In this document: piece by piece, positions 16,542-43,352 of the stretch | Numbering within the stretch: position 1 is the stretch's first letter | Layout of the letters: every line of letters begins with the position of its first letter | Assembly (NCBI GenBank): GCA_027604185.1 | Contig: JADGKB010000009.1 | Span: forward strand, 173,412-237,411 | Direction: 5' to 3' | Origin: Boothiomyces macroporosus | Taxonomy: Eukaryota > Chytridiomycota > Chytridiomycetes > Rhizophydiales > Terramycetaceae | DNA length: 64,000 nucleotides | The notes under the pieces: generated by a model | What the model saw: the letters and a program-made list of their open reading frames with translations, nothing else | Databases searched by the model: none | What the model was told of the DNA's origin: nothing | Translations under genes and position numbers: made by a program

Positions 16542-19500
16542 TTAAGCAACCGCTTTGGCGTACCACCGGTTTCCCGGATAATATGCGGTAACAACCTCGT
16601 ATTCTTCATCGCTGAACAATCCATCCAACACATTCTCACTTTCTTTCAAGACAGTAACCTTTCGCGCTTTAATTGCCTGCCGCTTTTCCAATTCTTCAAG
16701 TATCTGAGACAATTCAAACTTTGAAAGCACGATTTCAACCCTTTTTTGTAAATCGCACAGAATCAAACCAGGAGATTCTACTAAAACTCCTAAAACTAAT
16801 TCACAACAAGCCTTGTACACATTCGGGATTATTTCACCAGTGAGTGTGTACCACAGTTTTGGAGTTGTAAAAGTTTTTGACAGTTCTGTATCAACATCAG
16901 CTAATTCAACGGGCTTTTCAATTTCAATTAACCAAGAATGCTTGTACTTTTCATGAATGTACACCGTGAAATCAAAGCCAACTTTCAATACCTTGTCATT
17001 TTCCAGTACATGTAAGATTCTATCCAAATCTTTCAACTTTGTTTTTTCTTGCAATCTTTTAAATGTTAGACCAAGGATCCCTGCCTTGTCCAATTCATCC
17101 AACACTCGGTCGCACTCTAATTGCGGCTGACTCACATTCACACTTCTATCAGCACTTTTGCTAGGCTCTATTTCATCGTCAGACTCTATTTCTTTGCGCT
17201 TGCTGCTGCTCCGGCTACTTTGAACAATCTGTATCTTAATATTTGAAACAACTAGGATTAATAACAACTACGGTTGGGATCGTCAATCTGAACTTCTGGT
17301 ATCTTGACAACAAACTCTAAATTTTCTTGGAGAAATAGTTCCAGTAGAACAGCCATAACACCGGGTTCTTTACGGACTGGAAGTGCAGTTTTCCCGTTCT
17401 CTGCTAGATTCTTTTCAAGCGATTTCAAGTACGATGCACTCTGACCAAAGAGTTTTGGCGGCAAGATTCCACACAAAAGTTCAACAAACTTGTCGCTGGG
17501 AGAAAACTGTTTACCTTTACCGTAAGACTTTCTAATCAATACATATTTTTCTACTAGCTGATTGGTAGTCTTTTTTATATCCTCTTCATCAAACTTTTTC
17601 AGTGTCAGCCAAGCAATTTCCGGTCGATACAAACTCGACGGTGTAATAGATATCATTTTGATTATTGAGGCCAACAAGTGCATATGCAAATCTTGTTCAG
17701 TCATCTCGTATTCTTGATAATCACTTTGAGGTTCAACTTCATGAGTGAAAGAGATCGAGTACAAGAATTGGGTTTTTGAAGTTAGGTATCGTCTAGATTC
17801 TAGTTGTACATGAATAGGATCACCATTTTCGATGGACATGAAGTTGGTGGTATCTTCATTAATTTGATAATTCTGTTCAAAAGTTTCTATATCCTGTGGT
17901 AGACTTAAATCATGATCGGTAGGCATTTGAAATTCCTTGATGTAACTCTTGAAACCTTGCAGTAGTTTGATTAAATTGTTAGACAAGTATGGGAAATCAA
18001 TCACTTGTGTCTGTTCAAACATTGCTTGGTATTTTGGCCACTGAGATCGGTAAAAAGCAATCTTTTGTATATTACTATACTTGCGCTTAAGGATAATGAT
18101 TCGTCTACGTAGCCGATCTTTTGTTATTTCACTATTTGATGGAAAGAGTTGCGGGAGGTAAGCTAGAGGAAATTTACCAGCAATAGAGAAATTTGACAAA
18201 ATCACAAATGAGATCAGGATGTTTTCGTCATCTTCAGCAGACCAATCCATTCGTAGCCTTCTTCCTTTTACTTTTTCTTCAGGCTCTTCTTCAACCACCT
18301 TTTCAACAGGTTTCTTTTTCGGTTTCACCCGCTCACCAATGGATTTCGAAAACCGCTTTTCGATTTTTGAATAGTAATATTTAATCATTGTGATTGACAG
18401 GGAAATCTTTCTCGACAGACTTTGGCATAAAAAGTCGTTTTGTAATGGAGTACTCTTTGTTTTGTAATCGACATAACTTTCCAAGACGCTTTTCTGTTCT
18501 GCGTTGATAGAATAGACTTCTTTCCAATTCTTTTTCACAAACAAAAATGAGTATTTTTCATCCTCGTTTGGTGGACATGATAAGCATTCGTATTCCAACT
18601 GCTTCCAGTAATTTTCTACCGAAAGCGATTCTGAATGGAACACATGTTCTACTACTGGTGGTGATTTCGAATAGTCGTACAAATTAATAGTTTGGTGTAT
18701 TTCATAGTACAATGCAATGCTTTGATGCTCTTCCAGCGGAGTGTATTCATCAGTGTAATGATCATAATGCATAGGTCGAATCAATTCCAGTGTAATCAAT
18801 ATGTGAAGTAATTCATATAGAATGTATCTAAACCTAGACTTGTTGAATTTCAAGTTTTTGATATTTTGGGGTAAATCACATAGCTTTACGAGTTTTACTT
18901 CTTGATTAATTAAATACTCATCCAGTTCATCGGATTGCCGGGTCTGTCCTACAATCTGCAGTGCTAATCCGAGTGTCAGCTGATTGAATATCCAGCTAGT
19001 TTCGATAATATCTCTGTTTTGATCAAGTAGCCACTGGTGTAGAAGCTTTGCTCTCTTATTTTTTGGTCCAATAAACCCATATTTTTTAGCAAACTCTTTC
19101 CAGTTTGGTGAATCATCAAGATCTGGTTTTTTAGGCGTCTCTATTCGATCAATCTCCATGTTTTCGATAACGATAGGTTTGGAGGCACTAGGTCGGAAAT
19201 AATTTTGTTTGTACAGTTCAATTTGATTCTTTACTAGCGGATGTTCTAGATTATAATTTGGCAACGTGATGATGTTCTTTTGAATAATGTTTCCATTTGG
19301 AATCGGTACAGCCAAGTTGAAAGTCTTTACTTCGTTATCAAGCTCAAGTAAATTGATTGCCTTTCTAATCGTTTTTCTATCTATGCGATGCTCCAAATGA
19401 TCCCACTCTCTAGCGAGCTCGTTTATTTTATCTTCTAATATTTGATTCGCGTCATGCACTCGTTCAGTTTCCAATATACTTAGAATGTACTGTTTAATTT

Positions 19501-20509
19501 TTGCAATTTTTGATATCTTTCTTGGTGTTTGCAAGGGTAATGGAGCATCCACATATTCATCAGCCCAAGGTAATTCCACATTGATAAAGTAAACAAATCT
19601 AGACGATTTCCCAACATTTTCCTGGACAGCTTTAAGGTATTTCAAGCCTTTAGTTTTCCCTTCCAGCCGATGAATCTCATTTACGATTTTCTTTTTTGGA
19701 ATAGTAGGGAAATAATGACAGATATCTTTGATGGTCATCCCTGAGTTATTGTTCTTTTTAATCAAGAGATATAATTGCACGTCAAAAGCCAGGTTTTGCT
19801 TTAGCCCAATTGTAGTATTTTGAACCATTATTGGCTTGTTCTTTTTTTCGACATACGGATATTCCAGCAACCTGACACACTTGTCCAGCCCATTTTTTTG
19901 ATTCGAGACAGCGATAAATTCAAGATATTCTGGGTTAATTCAAAATACTTTCTCGTTGTAGTTTATACAGCAATCGGTAGAATGATTTTCTCAGTGGTCT
20001 CTGTTTTGTATCTAAATTAACAAGAAATACCAATGCCAACCAAGACCATCAAATCTTGGCATTTTAAAGTTTGGTTTGTGGATTCTTTTAGTATCGTCAA
20101 CATATTATTGATTTGGTCTTTGGTAATTGCAAGGTTATGATCAATCTGATTTGTGGAAAATCTCTTGTGTATGAACAGATTCGTCCTACTCCCGGAAGCC
20201 AATACGCTAATCTTTTGACTAGGTTAACCAACAGTACATCAGATCCGTAGTCGATAGAATTTTAAGATGATGAAAAGTAGTTTTCGGGTCCATTTCAAAA
20301 TGATGGGAGATTTCAATTTGCGTAGCTCCCTTTTCTCTTCTTCTTTGAATAAACTTTAGTATTTTCAAAACTGGTGTATCCCAATTGATATTGCTGTATT
20401 TCAAATGTCCAGTAATCTCGTCGTTCTCGCAATACAGCTTCCCATCGAATTTAACCGACTTTATCTTTCGTAGTAGCCCTAGAATGTAATCCTTCGTGTT
20501 GTCCTCCAA
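16542..20509 (-). CDS. TFIIIC largest subunit (Tfc3/GTF3C1-like)
   Basis: Five exons (20238-20509, 20031-20218, 19949-20011, 17272-19929, 16542-17251) joined over introns of 19, 19, 19 and 20 nt give 1296 residues. Exon 1 carries a winged-helix of the B-block binding type (TQIEISHHFEMDPKTTFHHL), continued after splicing by DLIQKISVLASGSRT. Further winged-helix-like blocks occur (SGMTIKDICHYFPTIPKKKI), and the acidic/basic linker KRKEIESDDE lies near the C-terminal part. This order fits the tau138/GTF3C1 subunit that binds the B box of tRNA genes. Overall similarity is low outside the N-terminus, as is usual for this protein, so the name is an inference from domain order and size. Confidence 0.68.
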
Positions 20510-20733
20510 AGGCGTAATTAAACCTATCTAAGTCTAGTCTTACCTACTGTTAACTCTATATACATTTCGAGTCTGCAAATTTCTTTTCTAATATTTCCCA
20601 CAATTCATTCAATTCCATTCCTGCATTAGTTTAACAGACCTTCGGGACCATTAACGGAAATTTCATTAATGGCGAATTGCAGCACTTGATCCATTTTCGC
20701 CACAAATTTTTTAGTTGGCTTTTCAGACTAAAA

Positions 20734-22884
20734 ATGGACGCATTTCTAAGTTGGGTAATAATAATTAACATAGGTAAGCGTAACTAACCATAGGTAAGTC
20801 CGCATTCATGTAGGCGAATACAATCCAAGAGACTACCGTAGAGTCGCTTGCGAATGGACAATCAATCAATCTGATTCTAAACAAAATAGATTCCAATTGG
20901 TTCAAAATCAAACCGCATTCGGATAACTGGGTCATTCAATTCAATAATTTAAAGTTGAATTACAAATTGATTGGAATGTACTTGCAGGAAATGAACCAGC
21001 AAATTGGGAACCTGGAACCAATTGATTTCACCAAAATGGTAAAGAATATGGATGTGAAAGAAATTGAGAAATATTGTTTTTTGGTTATTTCGCTATGCGT
21101 AGGTATAAACTTATTTTAGGTAAGGAATTCTAACCGCAGGTTCAATGCGGGAATAATCAATTCTTTATTGAAAAGATTCAAACGCTTCCGCAAGAGCATC
21201 AGACTACTCTTATGGTTGAAATTGAAAAAGTATGTTAATTTTAATACAGACCATCAATCTGTTGAGGAATGACAAGGTGAAAAAAGATAATGTCCAAGAT
21301 CTAGAGCAAGAATTGGAGGCTTTGAAGCAAGAGAAACTGGTGCTTGAAAACAAACTAGTCCAAATGGGAAAATCAAATTCGAATGAATACAATATTCAGC
21401 TAGAAACGAGAATGTAAATAGTATTAATACAGTGTTCAACTGGAAAAAGAGAACCAAGAACTGTCTCTAAAGAATCAGCAACTGTCTTCCAAAACTGTTT
21501 CTTTGAACCAGAAATTGAACCAAGAATACGAAAAAAATGACTTTCCAAAGATTCAACTCGATGAATTCAAACAGATCGTAGACAAGTTGGAAAAGACCGA
21601 GATGATGAACGAAAAATTAAGAAAAAAGATTGATGATTTGAATGAGCAAAAGAATGAAATCTCTCACTTGAAAAGCGTTGTTGACGATTTAAACAAAAAG
21701 AACAGTAAATATCTTGTTAACCAAAGATGACTTGGAAGAACATTTCCAAAAAGTGGCTGGATTGAAGCCATTGATTGATACTTACAAAGCCCAAATTGAG
21801 CAACTGGAAGAAAAGAATTCTCAGTTGCACGTTGAGCAATTGAACCTGTCTTTTCAAGCCAAAGAATTCAAAACAAGAATCAAGAGGTACGAGCAAGAGC
21901 ATGAACGCGATTCTGAAAAGATCATGGAGCTAGAAGAGCATATCAGAGATATTGAATTGGGAGTTGGAGAGTCTAAAGAATCCAAAGATATTCTTAAAGA
22001 GCAAAGCTTGAAATTGCTTTCTCAAACTAAAGAATTGGAAAGAGTCAGAGTATTGGAAAACTTGTTGCAAGACGCAAACTCTCTAAAGCAAAAATTCCAA
22101 GAGGATTATCAACAAGTATACAAGCAAAACATTTCATTATTAAACCAAATCCAACAATTGAAAACATTTAGTGATCCATCTTCAGCAGATTTGGTTTTGA
22201 AACTTACACATGCAGAATCTCAATTAAAGCGAATGCAGTCTGAAACCGACTTGAAAAAGGAAGAAAAACATAAATCTAGAACTTCATTTTCACCAGATAA
22301 GCGATTGTTTGATGAAAACAAAAAGATAATTGCTAGATGTGAAACATTGGAGCAAGAGAAGGCCAACTTGGAAACTAATTTAGCAGAAATCAATACAAAG
22401 ATGATGGAACTATCCAAACAAAACACGTATTTATTATTAATTTAGCGATTTAAAATCCAAGCTCAATGTATACGACTCTACTACTGGTAATATGGACGAC
22501 ACGACCAAAAACCTAGTAACGGCAACGCAAAAGCTAGGCTCAGTGACTGAACAAAACGTTCAACTCCATCAAGCACTCAAACAAGCCAAAGAATTAATCC
22601 AATCACAAGACAAGAAAATCAAAGAACTCGTAAGTTCAAGCACCAGTGAAAACTTTTTAGAAGCTGTACAGTCACTCGAACATACACTCAAACAACGAGA
22701 AGCCGAAATCCAACGACTAGTTACTGAGATCAAAGATACTAGAATGGCAGCTAAACGTGAACAACGATTGATGATGAGTGCATGGTACGAGCTTGGAATT
22801 CAGTTTCAACGTAAATCTGGTGGTGGGCCGGTTTCGTGGTTGGGTCAACAGCGCCAAAACCTGTCTAAATCAAGATTACTATAA
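20734..22884 (+). CDS. Hook-family dynein adaptor
   Basis: Seven exons (20734-20754, 20814-21098, 21140-21229, 21250-21413, 21433-21704, 21727-22426, 22446-22884) give 656 residues. The N-terminal Hook domain reads FLSW, then LANGQSINLILNKIDSNWFK and DNWVIQFNNLKLNYKLIGMY, matching HOOK1-3/HookA. The rest is almost continuous coiled coil, ending in SWLGQQRQN. Hook proteins link dynein-dynactin to early endosomes. The first two introns are 59 and 41 nt and each is built of about 20-nt GT...AG units back to back; the others are 20, 19, 22 and 19 nt. Removal of all units is needed to keep the frame. It shares a 224-nt divergent promoter region with the TFIIIC gene and ends 19 nt from the transporter. 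Confidence 0.88.
20755..20813 (+). other. Triple stacked intron in Hook gene
   Basis: The 59 nt between exon 1 (ATG...TGG) and exon 2 (GCG AAT ACA) divide into three intron-like units with nothing between them. Unit 1 (20755-20773) is GTAATAATAATTAACATAG, 19 nt. Unit 2 (20774-20793) is GTAAGCGTAACTAACCATAG, 20 nt. Unit 3 (20794-20813) is GTAAGTCCGCATTCATGTAG, 20 nt. Each starts GTAA and ends TAG; units 1 and 2 also carry clear branch-like TTAAC/CTAAC. Removing only one or two units always gives a premature stop or loses the conserved Hook frame. Confidence 0.8.
21099..21139 (+). other. Double stacked intron in Hook gene
   Basis: Between SLC (exon 2) and VQCGNNQFFIEK (exon 3) lie 41 nt made of a 21-nt unit (21099-21119, GTAGG...TTTTAG) and a 20-nt unit (21120-21139, GTAAGGAATTCTAACCGCAG). 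The junction is AG|GT with no exon. Only removal of both restores the Hook-domain frame. Confidence 0.78.
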
Positions 22885-40513: not shown

Positions 40514-41166
40514 TATATTTATAATGAAATATTACTTGCTTTTTGATTACAGTGTAGTGCATTTGTAAAGTTTGGAATTCAGATACAAAGTATTCTATTA
40601 ATCTGCTCTCATAGTGAAACAGATACTGTACAAAATCAGCCCGATACCAATTTCGTTTAAACATGGTCTTTATTTTCAATCCTAATTCTCTTCAAGATAA
40701 TCGAATACCAGGTATCGCGGATGATCTCTGCACCATTTCAAGACTGCTATTCTCCTACAGTATTCAAGATCATTTTCAGCTATAGTTAGAGCCGCTTTGA
40801 TATTTCTACTGCATTTTTGGTCTAGTCAATTATTGTCATTTTGTAATTGCAAAAAAGACAACTTTTAAGCTTGTGACTAATTATATTAACGTGAACGAGT
40901 TGGGGCCGGGATGAGCATCAGGTTAACTATAGCTAGAATTACCAGTGTTCGAAAGAAATATTTCCTGGACTGTGCAGCTTTTTTTGAAAGACAGTCGTTT
41001 GTATAGCAGTTTGATCAGCATTCATTTGCAAGTCATTTCGATTGGGCTTTAAAAGTCGTACTTAGGGTTTTTGTGTCGCCTAACTGATTGGATCATGCTC
41101 GCCATTTGTAGCAATGGAACTTCTTGAGAATCTCCATATCAAACAGGTATGTGTAATTTAATTTAT
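40514..41166. other. Intergenic region, possible decayed minus-strand coding
   Basis: This 653-nt gap lies between convergent genes. On the minus strand two short frames read somewhat like protein: 40682-40825 (ending RYLVFDYLEEN) and 40464-40661 (starting MFKRNWYRADF). Neither has a start, splice pattern or family I can support, and frames of this length are expected by chance. Nothing else was recognised. Confidence 0.35.
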
Positions 41167-41766
41167 TTAAGCATCGCATTTAACTTCCCAAGGTCTTTGG
41201 CATTGTTGGGTAGATTCGCACCAAGTGTAACCTGCGGAAGCTTTGCATCCATGAGAATCAGAGTCACCACCAACTACTACAGGGCATTGTGTTTCCCAAG
41301 GTCTTTGGCATTGTTGGGTAGATTCGCACCAAGTGTAACCGGCAGATGGGATACAACCGTGAGCATCTCTGTCTCCGCCAACATTTCTCTTTTCAACTGC
41401 TGGGCATTGTGTTTCCCAAGGTCTTTGGCATTGTTGAGTAGATTCGCACCAAGTATAACCTGCGGAAGCTTTGCATCCATGAGAATCAGAGTCACCACCA
41501 ACTACTACAGGGCATTGTTGTTCCCAAGGTCTTTGGCATTGTTGAGTAGATTCACACCAAGTGTAGCCGGCAGATGGGATACAACCGTGAGCATCTCTAT
41601 CACCACCAGGGACAGGACACTTTTCTTCCCAAGGGCGTTGGCACTTTTGAGTAGATTCACACCAAGTGTAGCCGGCAGATGGGATACAACCATGAACATC
41701 TCTATCACCTCCAACAACAGGAGAAGCTGAAGCAGCAGCAACAAGTAAAGCAATAAATACTGACAT
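41167..41766 (-). CDS. Secreted protein of five W-C modules
   Basis: An intronless gene of 199 residues; the start is the Met before the signal peptide (MSVFIALLVAAASAS). Five modules of about 38 residues follow, each of the form GGDxDxHGC, then SAGYTWCEST, then QxCQRPWE, then C, giving four cysteines per module that could form two disulphides. A dibasic KR (PAVEKRNVGG) between modules 3 and 4 could be a Kex2 site. Modules 2-3 and 4-5 are nearly identical at DNA level (offset 228 nt). Similar short modules occur in many microbial secreted proteins as far as I recall; their role is unknown. A GTATAAATAC element lies 28 nt upstream. Confidence 0.85.
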   Translation of the reverse strand: MSVFIALLVAAASASPVVGGDRDVHGCIPSAGYTWCESTQKCQRPWEEKCPVPGGDRDAHGCIPSAGYTWCESTQQCQRPWEQQCPVVVGGDSDSHGCKASAGYTWCESTQQCQRPWETQCPAVEKRNVGGDRDAHGCIPSAGYTWCESTQQCQRPWETQCPVVVGGDSDSHGCKASAGYTWCESTQQCQRPWEVKCDA

Positions 41767-42455
41767 TTTGATAAATAGCATTTCTGTATTGCTGTATTTA
41801 TACCCTTTGAGAGACACCACTGTGGGGTTACACAGGCTAAACTGCGGTCACGCAAGCCTATTTGGGTATTCAAAGGGTCGTTATTCAAGTTTTGTCAAGA
41901 GCAAGTGTTGTGTTTCAGAATTAATCACAAAATTCTAGAGATTGAGGCACTCATGAATTTGGATGTTTTTTAAAAGATACTATTGGGCTGTCAAACACTG
42001 TATTATTCATGGTCGGTTATATTAAATCCAAAGTGTTATAATATTAAAGTTCTATATTGGGACCAAAAGAAGATCCAAAATTGGAACCAAATGGGCCCAG
42101 GTTGCCCCACAGCCAAGAAACAAAAGAAAACAGAACGCCAAACCGGTATATCATTAAAGAAACCGTAATCAACTTGACCAGGGTAACTATATTAAAATCT
42201 CTGATATCTGGCAACATTGTTAATTATATGGGATTGAAATCATTCTCAAAGGAATGCAGCCACGGTTTTGCCACCACAACAACTGTTGAGTTTTCTATTT
42301 TGGCACATGAAGTGTTCTCGAACATTTCGTACACTCTGATTCGCGGAGAATGCCGGGTTTAATATGCGGCGAATAATTTGATTCATGATTATAATGACAA
42401 ATCACCAATCACAATAGTTCATCTTTTGATTGGACAACTTGAAAGATGAAAAGAT
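41767..42455. other. Intergenic region between W-C module genes
   Basis: These 689 nt include the TATA box of the five-module gene and the 3' flank of the three-module gene. Plus-strand open frames at 41983-42168 and 42057-42362 lack a proper ATG start and family motifs. They are not called. Confidence 0.45.
41794..41803 (-). promoter_or_regulatory. TATA box of five-module gene
   Basis: GTATAAATAC on the minus strand lies 27 nt upstream of the ATG. The same or nearly the same 10-mer precedes two other W-C module genes and the ferric-reductase gene. Confidence 0.6.
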
Positions 42456-42830
42456 TTATTGGTTGACGCAGATATTTTCCCAAGGACGTTGGCACTTTTT
42501 GGTAGATGTGCACCATTCAAAGCCTTCAGAGAGAACGCACCCGTGTTCATCTTTATCTGACCCAGGAGCAGTTGGGCATTGGTTTACCCAAGGCTGTTGG
42601 CATTTCTTTGTAGATTCGCACCAAACATACCCAGCAGAACCAACACAACCATGAGCATCTTTATCTGACCCAGGAGTAATTGGACATTCAGTTTCCCAAG
42701 GACGTTGGCATTTTCCAGTTTCAGGGCACCAAGCATACCCAGCAGAAACAAGACATTTGTGAGTTTCTACAGAGCTAGTAATTGGAGAAGCAGTGGCAGT
42801 TGCAGCAAGTAAAGTAATGAAGAAAGTCAT
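42456..42830 (-). CDS. Secreted protein of three W-C modules
   Basis: An intronless gene of 124 residues beginning at the signal peptide (MTFFITLLAATATAS). It has three modules: HKCLVSAGYAWCPETGKCQR, HGCVGSAGYVWCESTKKCQQ and HGCVLSEGFEWCTSTKKCQR, each closed by PW(E/V) and a fourth Cys. Linkers carry PGSDKD instead of the GGDRD of its neighbours, so it is an older paralogue. There is no dibasic site. A TATA box sits at 42859-42868. Confidence 0.82.
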   Translation of the reverse strand: MTFFITLLAATATASPITSSVETHKCLVSAGYAWCPETGKCQRPWETECPITPGSDKDAHGCVGSAGYVWCESTKKCQQPWVNQCPTAPGSDKDEHGCVLSEGFEWCTSTKKCQRPWENICVNQ

Positions 42831-42858
42831 GTTGAATTGAGTTTTTGTTGGTTCTACT

Positions 42859-42868
42859 GTATTTATAC
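42859..42868 (-). promoter_or_regulatory. TATA box of three-module gene
   Basis: GTATAAATAC on the minus strand lies 28 nt upstream of the ATG at 42830, in the same position and spelling as at the five-module gene. The rest of the 522-nt gap (42831-43352) shows no gene. Confidence 0.6.
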
Positions 42869-43352
42869 GAATAAACACGAAAATTGTGTTTCTTCCACCA
42901 ACCTTTGTGGGTGGAATTCAAGGTTCTCCTGCGGAATCAATCGATATAGCAATTAAAGTGCAGTATTTCGTGTTAAATTTGTAGCACATACGGATTACAT
43001 TGTACTCATATTAGTATCTCAAGTTGAAAATGTTGTGTACAACATCATTTAGGTGAATGAAATGTAAGAGACCAATATAGTAATCCTTCTAAAGCCCTTA
43101 AAACTACTGCATTTGGAACTTACCTCTTTAAACCCAATTCATTTGTAACTGAGGGGCAATTTAGGATATATGCTAATAAATCAAGTACGCAGATAAATTG
43201 AATTGGTAATAAAAGTCAAAGGAACTTTGTTGTAATGATCTGAGTTGAACTAAAAGCTCAAATATTATGAAAGCTATTACAGTCATACAAGAAAGCAAGT
43301 TGCAACACTTAAAAAGGTAAAAATGAATGTATAAATATCCATATTGGTTTAT

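Follow-up and report, generated by a model that had tools for sequence, protein, structure and literature searches.

In the genomic sequence of the chytrid Boothiomyces macroporosus, complete introns of spliceosomal type, each about 20 nt long, directly follow one another, separated by zero-length exons, and the conserved proteins predicted for the affected genes are restored only when an array is excised completely. The fungus belongs to the Terramycetaceae (Rhizophydiales, Chytridiomycota). Such an arrangement had been proposed in a sequence-only reading of one HOOK-family gene, together with a genome tuned to introns of about 20 nt; both are well supported, in that gene and at other loci. 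The gene lies in a 64,000-nt stretch (the window) of contig JADGKB010000009.1 (237,411 bases); the assembly searched comprises 15.2 Mb in 216 contigs.

The HOOK-family gene, identified by profile and homologue matches, runs from start to stop at 20734..22884 (+) and yields a product of 656 aa once array 1 and five other intervening sequences are spliced out. Array 1 (59 nt) sits directly after codon 7 and consists of unit 1 (20755..20773, 19 nt, GTAATAATAATTAACATAG, intron score 6.3), unit 2 (20774..20793, 20 nt, GTAAGCGTAACTAACCATAG, score 5.0) and unit 3 (20794..20813, 20 nt, GTAAGTCCGCATTCATGTAG, score 4.3), the last with the variant branch motif TTCAT. The earlier description of this array as 19+20+20 nt, every unit GTAA...TAG and joined at TAG|GTAA, is exact. 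Array 2, which that reading did not include, forms the second intron of the gene (+, 21+20 nt) and is made up of 21099..21119 (21 nt, GTAGGTATAAACTTATTTTAG, score 2.5) and 21120..21139 (20 nt, GTAAGGAATTCTAACCGCAG, score 2.9). The other introns of the gene are ordinary and single: 21230..21249 (20 nt), 21414..21432 (19 nt), 21705..21726 (22 nt) and 22427..22445 (19 nt), all on the plus strand.

Each unit of array 1 can be kept or removed, and only one of the eight resulting states, that with all three units out, leaves the frame open through the gene. The remaining seven run into a stop after 14–50 aa, which bears out the claim that partial removal breaks the frame. At array 2, three of the four removal states stop early and full removal is open. 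The spliced protein matches the HOOK_N profile (E = 8.5e-12, residues 5–130 against profile positions 7–144 of 146), the HOOK family profile and the solved structure of Hook homolog 3 (E = 1.3e-8, residues 4–133). The Hook domain, previously called 'perfect', is essentially complete, and the adjective is slightly too strong.

A deposited B. macroporosus protein from the same contig, HK103_007418, is 100% identical to the spliced Hook protein over 87% of length, and its junctions are the same at both arrays. This agreement corroborates the arrays weakly, because the C-terminus of HK103_007418 departs from the proteins of relatives; the entry may be an unaided prediction, and the C-terminal divergence is probably an annotation error. 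At 22630–22660 of the window the residues of HK103_007418 fit excision of a 31-nt segment, GTAAGTTC...TTTTTAG (stretch read by eye), which is coding as judged from the Terramyces and Globomyces proteins. The proteins of both relatives are colinear across the array 2 junction. Across the array 1 junction the Globomyces protein is colinear in a less conserved stretch, and the Terramyces model begins later.

Introns of about 20 nt are the rule in this genome. A small gene-finding model, trained on 254 kb (the window and 19 further stretches), gave the intron consensus GTAA...YTAAY.NAG. With a flat length prior, although short introns had served to train the splice signals, 124 of 145 introns in these 254 kb of the 15.2 Mb measured 18–24 nt, the narrow peak at about 15–25 nt that marks ultra-short spliceosomal introns. 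A units-only model, short by construction (16–25 nt), predicted 195 introns in the 254 kb, with lengths of 19 nt (n = 68), 20 nt (67), 21 nt (33), 22 nt (20) and 23 nt (5) and one intron each of 16 and 24 nt. When 16–130 nt was allowed, 191 of 229 predicted introns were still ≤ 25 nt; 17 of the 38 longer ones had fair splice signals, and two of these 17 were the Hook arrays, taken wholly or partly for a single intron. Most long calls gained little over a unit-only parse, and several were recognized by eye as a pair of single introns flanking a short exon or as a single intron plus coding sequence. A 45-nt candidate on contig C1 had a local gain of 22 over the unit-only parse (next highest, 8). 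The splicing machinery appears to accept a narrow range of lengths, with this one possible exception, and the limit may not be absolute.

Chance, that is, the accidental occurrence of AG|GT inside ordinary longer introns, can be given practically no weight as an explanation. The 254 kb were scanned on both strands for abutting units that each scored ≥ 1.9 (roughly the 5th percentile for single introns). Only two chains were found, both in the Hook gene, and there were none in any of 12 dinucleotide resamplings. Random 59-nt GTAA..TAG sequences never decomposed into three such units (0 of 40,000), and random 41-nt sequences did so into two units twice in 40,000. Across the genome, the spacing between a YTAAY branch and the following AG|GTAA...YTAAY peaked at the value expected of an intron: gaps of 1 and 2 had 18 and 16 distinct hits, whereas gaps 5–32 averaged 3.9 hits each, and there was a smaller rise of 9 and 9 hits at gaps 22 and 23, where one more unit fits (162 distinct hits among the 172 listed of 177 matches). 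Corrected for the strict motifs, the peak would correspond to a rough figure of 107 zero-length junctions in the genome.

What does speak for chance is that unscored patterns were no commoner than their reversed controls: raw totals for the branch-containing patterns were 72 versus 80 and 105 versus 125, and the plain doublet pattern occurred 286 times versus 439 reversed. The array signal emerges only at intron-like spacing or after scoring. Among 94 distinct doublets (from 100 listed of the 286), both units were intron-like in 21, at 15 loci including Hook, where 0.7 were expected. The sequence-only reading had named a random frequency of internal AG|GT as the result that would count against it; junctions are instead enriched at intron-like spacing, with raw totals not above control. 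Unless the intron model is wrong, these controls already refute the chance reading.

The same reading had called for a genome-wide search for directly repeated short introns, and such a search uncovered further arrays in conserved genes. A branch-blind pattern for consecutive units gave 29 matches in the genome versus 7 for the reversed pattern, and many of the matches resolve as arrays of 3 to 8 units, of which those in conserved genes have the strongest support. The gene for glycogen debranching enzyme (GDE) carries six units (133 nt), whose junction falls inside TEHPECGYNLV, and that for USP7 four units (82 nt), with the junction inside NKQWRV; both segments align ungapped with the solved enzymes. 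Arrays in ING (five units, 101 nt), PEX1 (three units) and BRE (3+3 units) lie inside Pfam matches. In the GDE protein search (proteins ≤ 1.75 times the query length) the species' own protein was not among the matches listed. The fibrillarin gene (locus L035, minus strand) packs eight intron units, including two doublets, into roughly 1.1 kb. Its match covers residues 33–307 of 315, and the doublets are in an N-terminal region of low complexity, so that homology says little about their junctions.

Of the 12 distinct arrays of at least three units that were tabulated, 10 have the same dominant open phase on their upstream and downstream sides (P = 5e-4); one of the ten, on the minus strand of contig C8, rests on a downstream stretch of 21 nt, and the phases disagree at the C1 and C5 arrays. 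Six arrays have at least four units (C1, C8 minus, C42, C77, C90 and C92), of which the C42 and C8 minus chains were pieced together from overlapping outputs. At C42 the overlapping matches cover three units completely and two others in part; one has a GC donor. For the arrays on C5, C60 and C1, gene modelling yielded no convincing gene. The C1 array (C1:351620-351779, L021–L026) consists of eight abutting 19–20-nt units, five of them nearly identical, with weak branch motifs; gene modelling gave neither a surrounding gene nor a coding context for it, and it could be a minisatellite in non-coding DNA or an array in decay. Two candidates were discarded: the C128 hit (L046) is a short tandem repeat rather than introns, and C1:393103 and C173:12185 are one and the same sequence and hold no scored chain. 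Identical matches also recur at fixed offsets within contigs C2, C10, C18, C20, C65 and C129 or across C1 and C173 (offsets of about 42.6, 53.7, 47.6, 45.1 and 18.8 kb; on C129, three copies at a spacing of 3,847 bp). They reflect either segmental duplication or haplotypes that the assembly contains twice.

Over ten arrays, full removal alone kept the frame open: none of 158 unit-retaining isoforms did so. Partial splicing would therefore yield transcripts of the NMD type, as would be seen if the units were alternatively kept and removed, switching between productive and unproductive mRNAs. However, any frame-breaking intron has the same property, nothing positive points to regulation, and the arrays are found in unrelated housekeeping genes. 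We regard regulated splicing of this kind as very improbable.

The internal units, first and last excluded, are informative about how an array is removed. In ten branch-blind arrays, with the near-identical C1 array left out, YTRAY is in place in 14 of 18 internal units, where shuffling predicts 1.6, and it is present in 129 of 170 single introns. Inclusion of C1 lowers the figure to 14 of 24. Over all distinct units of the branch-blind search the motif occurs in 25 of 41 (3.1 expected). The C5 array belongs neither to this set nor to that used for neighbour similarity (below). A few of the 18 internal units (in BRE a and ING) are recent copies of a neighbour. Because most of the units have diverged from their neighbours, their signals look kept and not merely inherited; had splicing relied on the outermost sites alone, nothing would have kept internal units from losing them.

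These observations bear on the simplest alternative, in which the first donor is joined directly to the last acceptor (59, 41 or 133 nt) and the internal sites are relics. Single-step excision requires no intermediates, there is the 45-nt candidate for a unitary intron on C1, and the Hook arrays come out as longer introns when the gene model has no short-length rule. Against it stand the branch motifs, which internal units carry about as single introns do although these units have mostly diverged, and the rarity of unitary introns above 25 nt. We consider single-step excision unlikely. The stepwise removal suggested by the sequence-only reading draws indirect support from the same two features, and because internal branch motifs are kept and the length range is narrow, we favour unit-by-unit removal at AG|GT. 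The spliceosome would use intron definition over about 19–23 nt, every donor would pair with its own branch point and acceptor, and an array would be excised one unit at a time. Whichever unit went first, a correct junction or the donor of the following unit would remain, and the order of removal need not matter because every junction is AG|GT. Array excision would then amount to recursive splicing on a micro-scale.

Adjacent units are near-identical in three of 14 arrays (C1, BRE a and ING, at C1:351620, C8:114397 and C92), a clear sign of tandem duplication. In the other 11, including Hook, neighbours resemble each other no more than do units taken from separate arrays. Searches of the genome with ≤ 3 mismatches gave six other matches to Hook unit 2, the best with two mismatches (two matches in the reversed control), and one other match to unit 3, with three mismatches (no match in the reversed control); dispersed copying of units 2 and 3 was dismissed, as no recent source copy was found. 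An origin of introns from a duplicated exon was likewise rejected: over 170 introns, identity to the downstream exon was 4.49 of 16 positions versus 4.49 at random, and to the upstream exon 4.21 versus 4.32. The proposal that introns are gained by tandem insertion into an existing one is accordingly borne out in part: near-identical neighbours exist in the three arrays, but the Hook units are dissimilar and no recent source was found for units 2 and 3.

The simplest account is duplication with later divergence. A unit would be duplicated in tandem, invisibly to the protein, and the copies would diverge while selection keeps each of them spliceable; separate insertion beside an existing intron is an alternative and may contribute too. 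Growth seems to feed on itself, because about 107 junctions scattered singly over roughly 11,700 introns (195 per 254 kb scaled to the genome) would leave chains of at least four units practically absent, and six were observed. We incline, with some reserve, to see the arrays as intron minisatellites: tandem repeats in which every unit is a complete intron maintained by selection, and which can expand because each new copy would be spliced out alone. Taken as a whole, unit-by-unit removal combined with growth by unit duplication and divergence is probably the best explanation of the arrays.

The closest known process is recursive splicing in Drosophila and human, in which introns are removed in segments at ratchet points with juxtaposed AG|GT, a ratchet point appearing as a zero-nucleotide exon (PMC8605326 and PMC10156609, both as excerpted). 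It occurs mostly in long introns, with a broader size range in human (excerpt of PMC10156609), and is described as needing a cryptic RS-exon downstream of the junction (excerpt of PMC8605326). The chytrid arrays share the AG|GT logic, and their predicted units do abut at AG|GT within one intervening sequence. They differ in having units of about 20 nt, in up to six or more consecutive units and in having no room for an RS-exon: the roughly 20 nt past each junction are occupied by the next unit.

Stwintrons of ascomycete fungi also have more than one intron unit per intervening sequence and are spliced consecutively; in the excerpts of PMC8469720 and PMC9024468, the internal intron splits the donor, branch or acceptor of the external one or sits near its donor. 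No splice element is interrupted in the chytrid arrays, whose units have their own donor and acceptor and mostly a branch motif. They are complete and merely abut, and nesting is unnecessary. Ultra-short introns of 15–23 nt are described for chlorarachniophyte nucleomorphs (PMC4035089), Blepharisma (PMC9942806) and Loxodes (PMC11441545), each source as excerpted. The narrow length peak is the same; those hosts are algal endosymbionts and ciliates, and here it is a fungus. The nucleomorph excerpt gives 32 nt as the largest intron known there in 2014, so no arrays are reported for these genomes in that source.

New introns can arise from copies, as with introner elements and tandem genomic duplication. 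Many near-identical dispersed copies, the hallmark of introners, were not found for Hook units 2 and 3, and introns show no similarity to their flanking exons; what duplicates there are lie side by side, copied from intron to intron. Tandem genomic duplication as a mode of intron gain is named in the excerpt of PMC8469720. Among the matches listed from open-licence PubMed Central (subscription papers and preprints lie outside it), judged by title and opening lines of the abstract, there was no description of exonless tandem intron arrays, nor of ~ 20-nt introns in chytrids.

If our interpretation is true, recursive-type splicing here reaches its lower size limit, successive sites being separated by no exon and hardly any intron, and splice-junction arrays would constitute a gene architecture of their own as well as a way for introns to be gained. 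They would serve as natural tests of how the spliceosome measures intron length, of how it copes with commitment events crowded onto 20-nt units, and of whether a spent acceptor can at once serve as the edge of the next donor. They would also offer a sequence-readable path by which introns multiply without touching the protein.

Arrays may cluster in the genome. A divergent neighbour of the Hook gene (16542..20618, −; TFIIIC large-subunit-like, by eye) contains a third array, 20524–20563 (−, 20+20 nt), which the sequence-only reading had likewise not described. It comprises unit 1 (20544..20563, GTATATAGAGTTAACAGTAG) and unit 2 (20524..20543, GTAAGACTAGACTTAGATAG, with a weak branch motif); the doublet is below the unit-score threshold of 1.9 and weaker than Hook array 2. 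The three arrays span about 620 bp, and all four zero-length junctions among the 195 introns of the gene-modelled 254 kb fall in the Hook and neighbour arrays. At C8:113712-114841 (L030), a divergent gene pair, the minus gene WD40-like by eye and the plus gene BRE by Pfam, has arrays on both strands in a space of about 1.1 kb, and in this resembles Hook and its TFIIIC-like neighbour. Scans of the whole 64,000-nt window for tRNA genes and Rfam families gave no matches. At 41128-42917 of the window, two neighbouring open frames encode short proteins made of repeated SAGYTWCESTQQCQRPWE-like modules.
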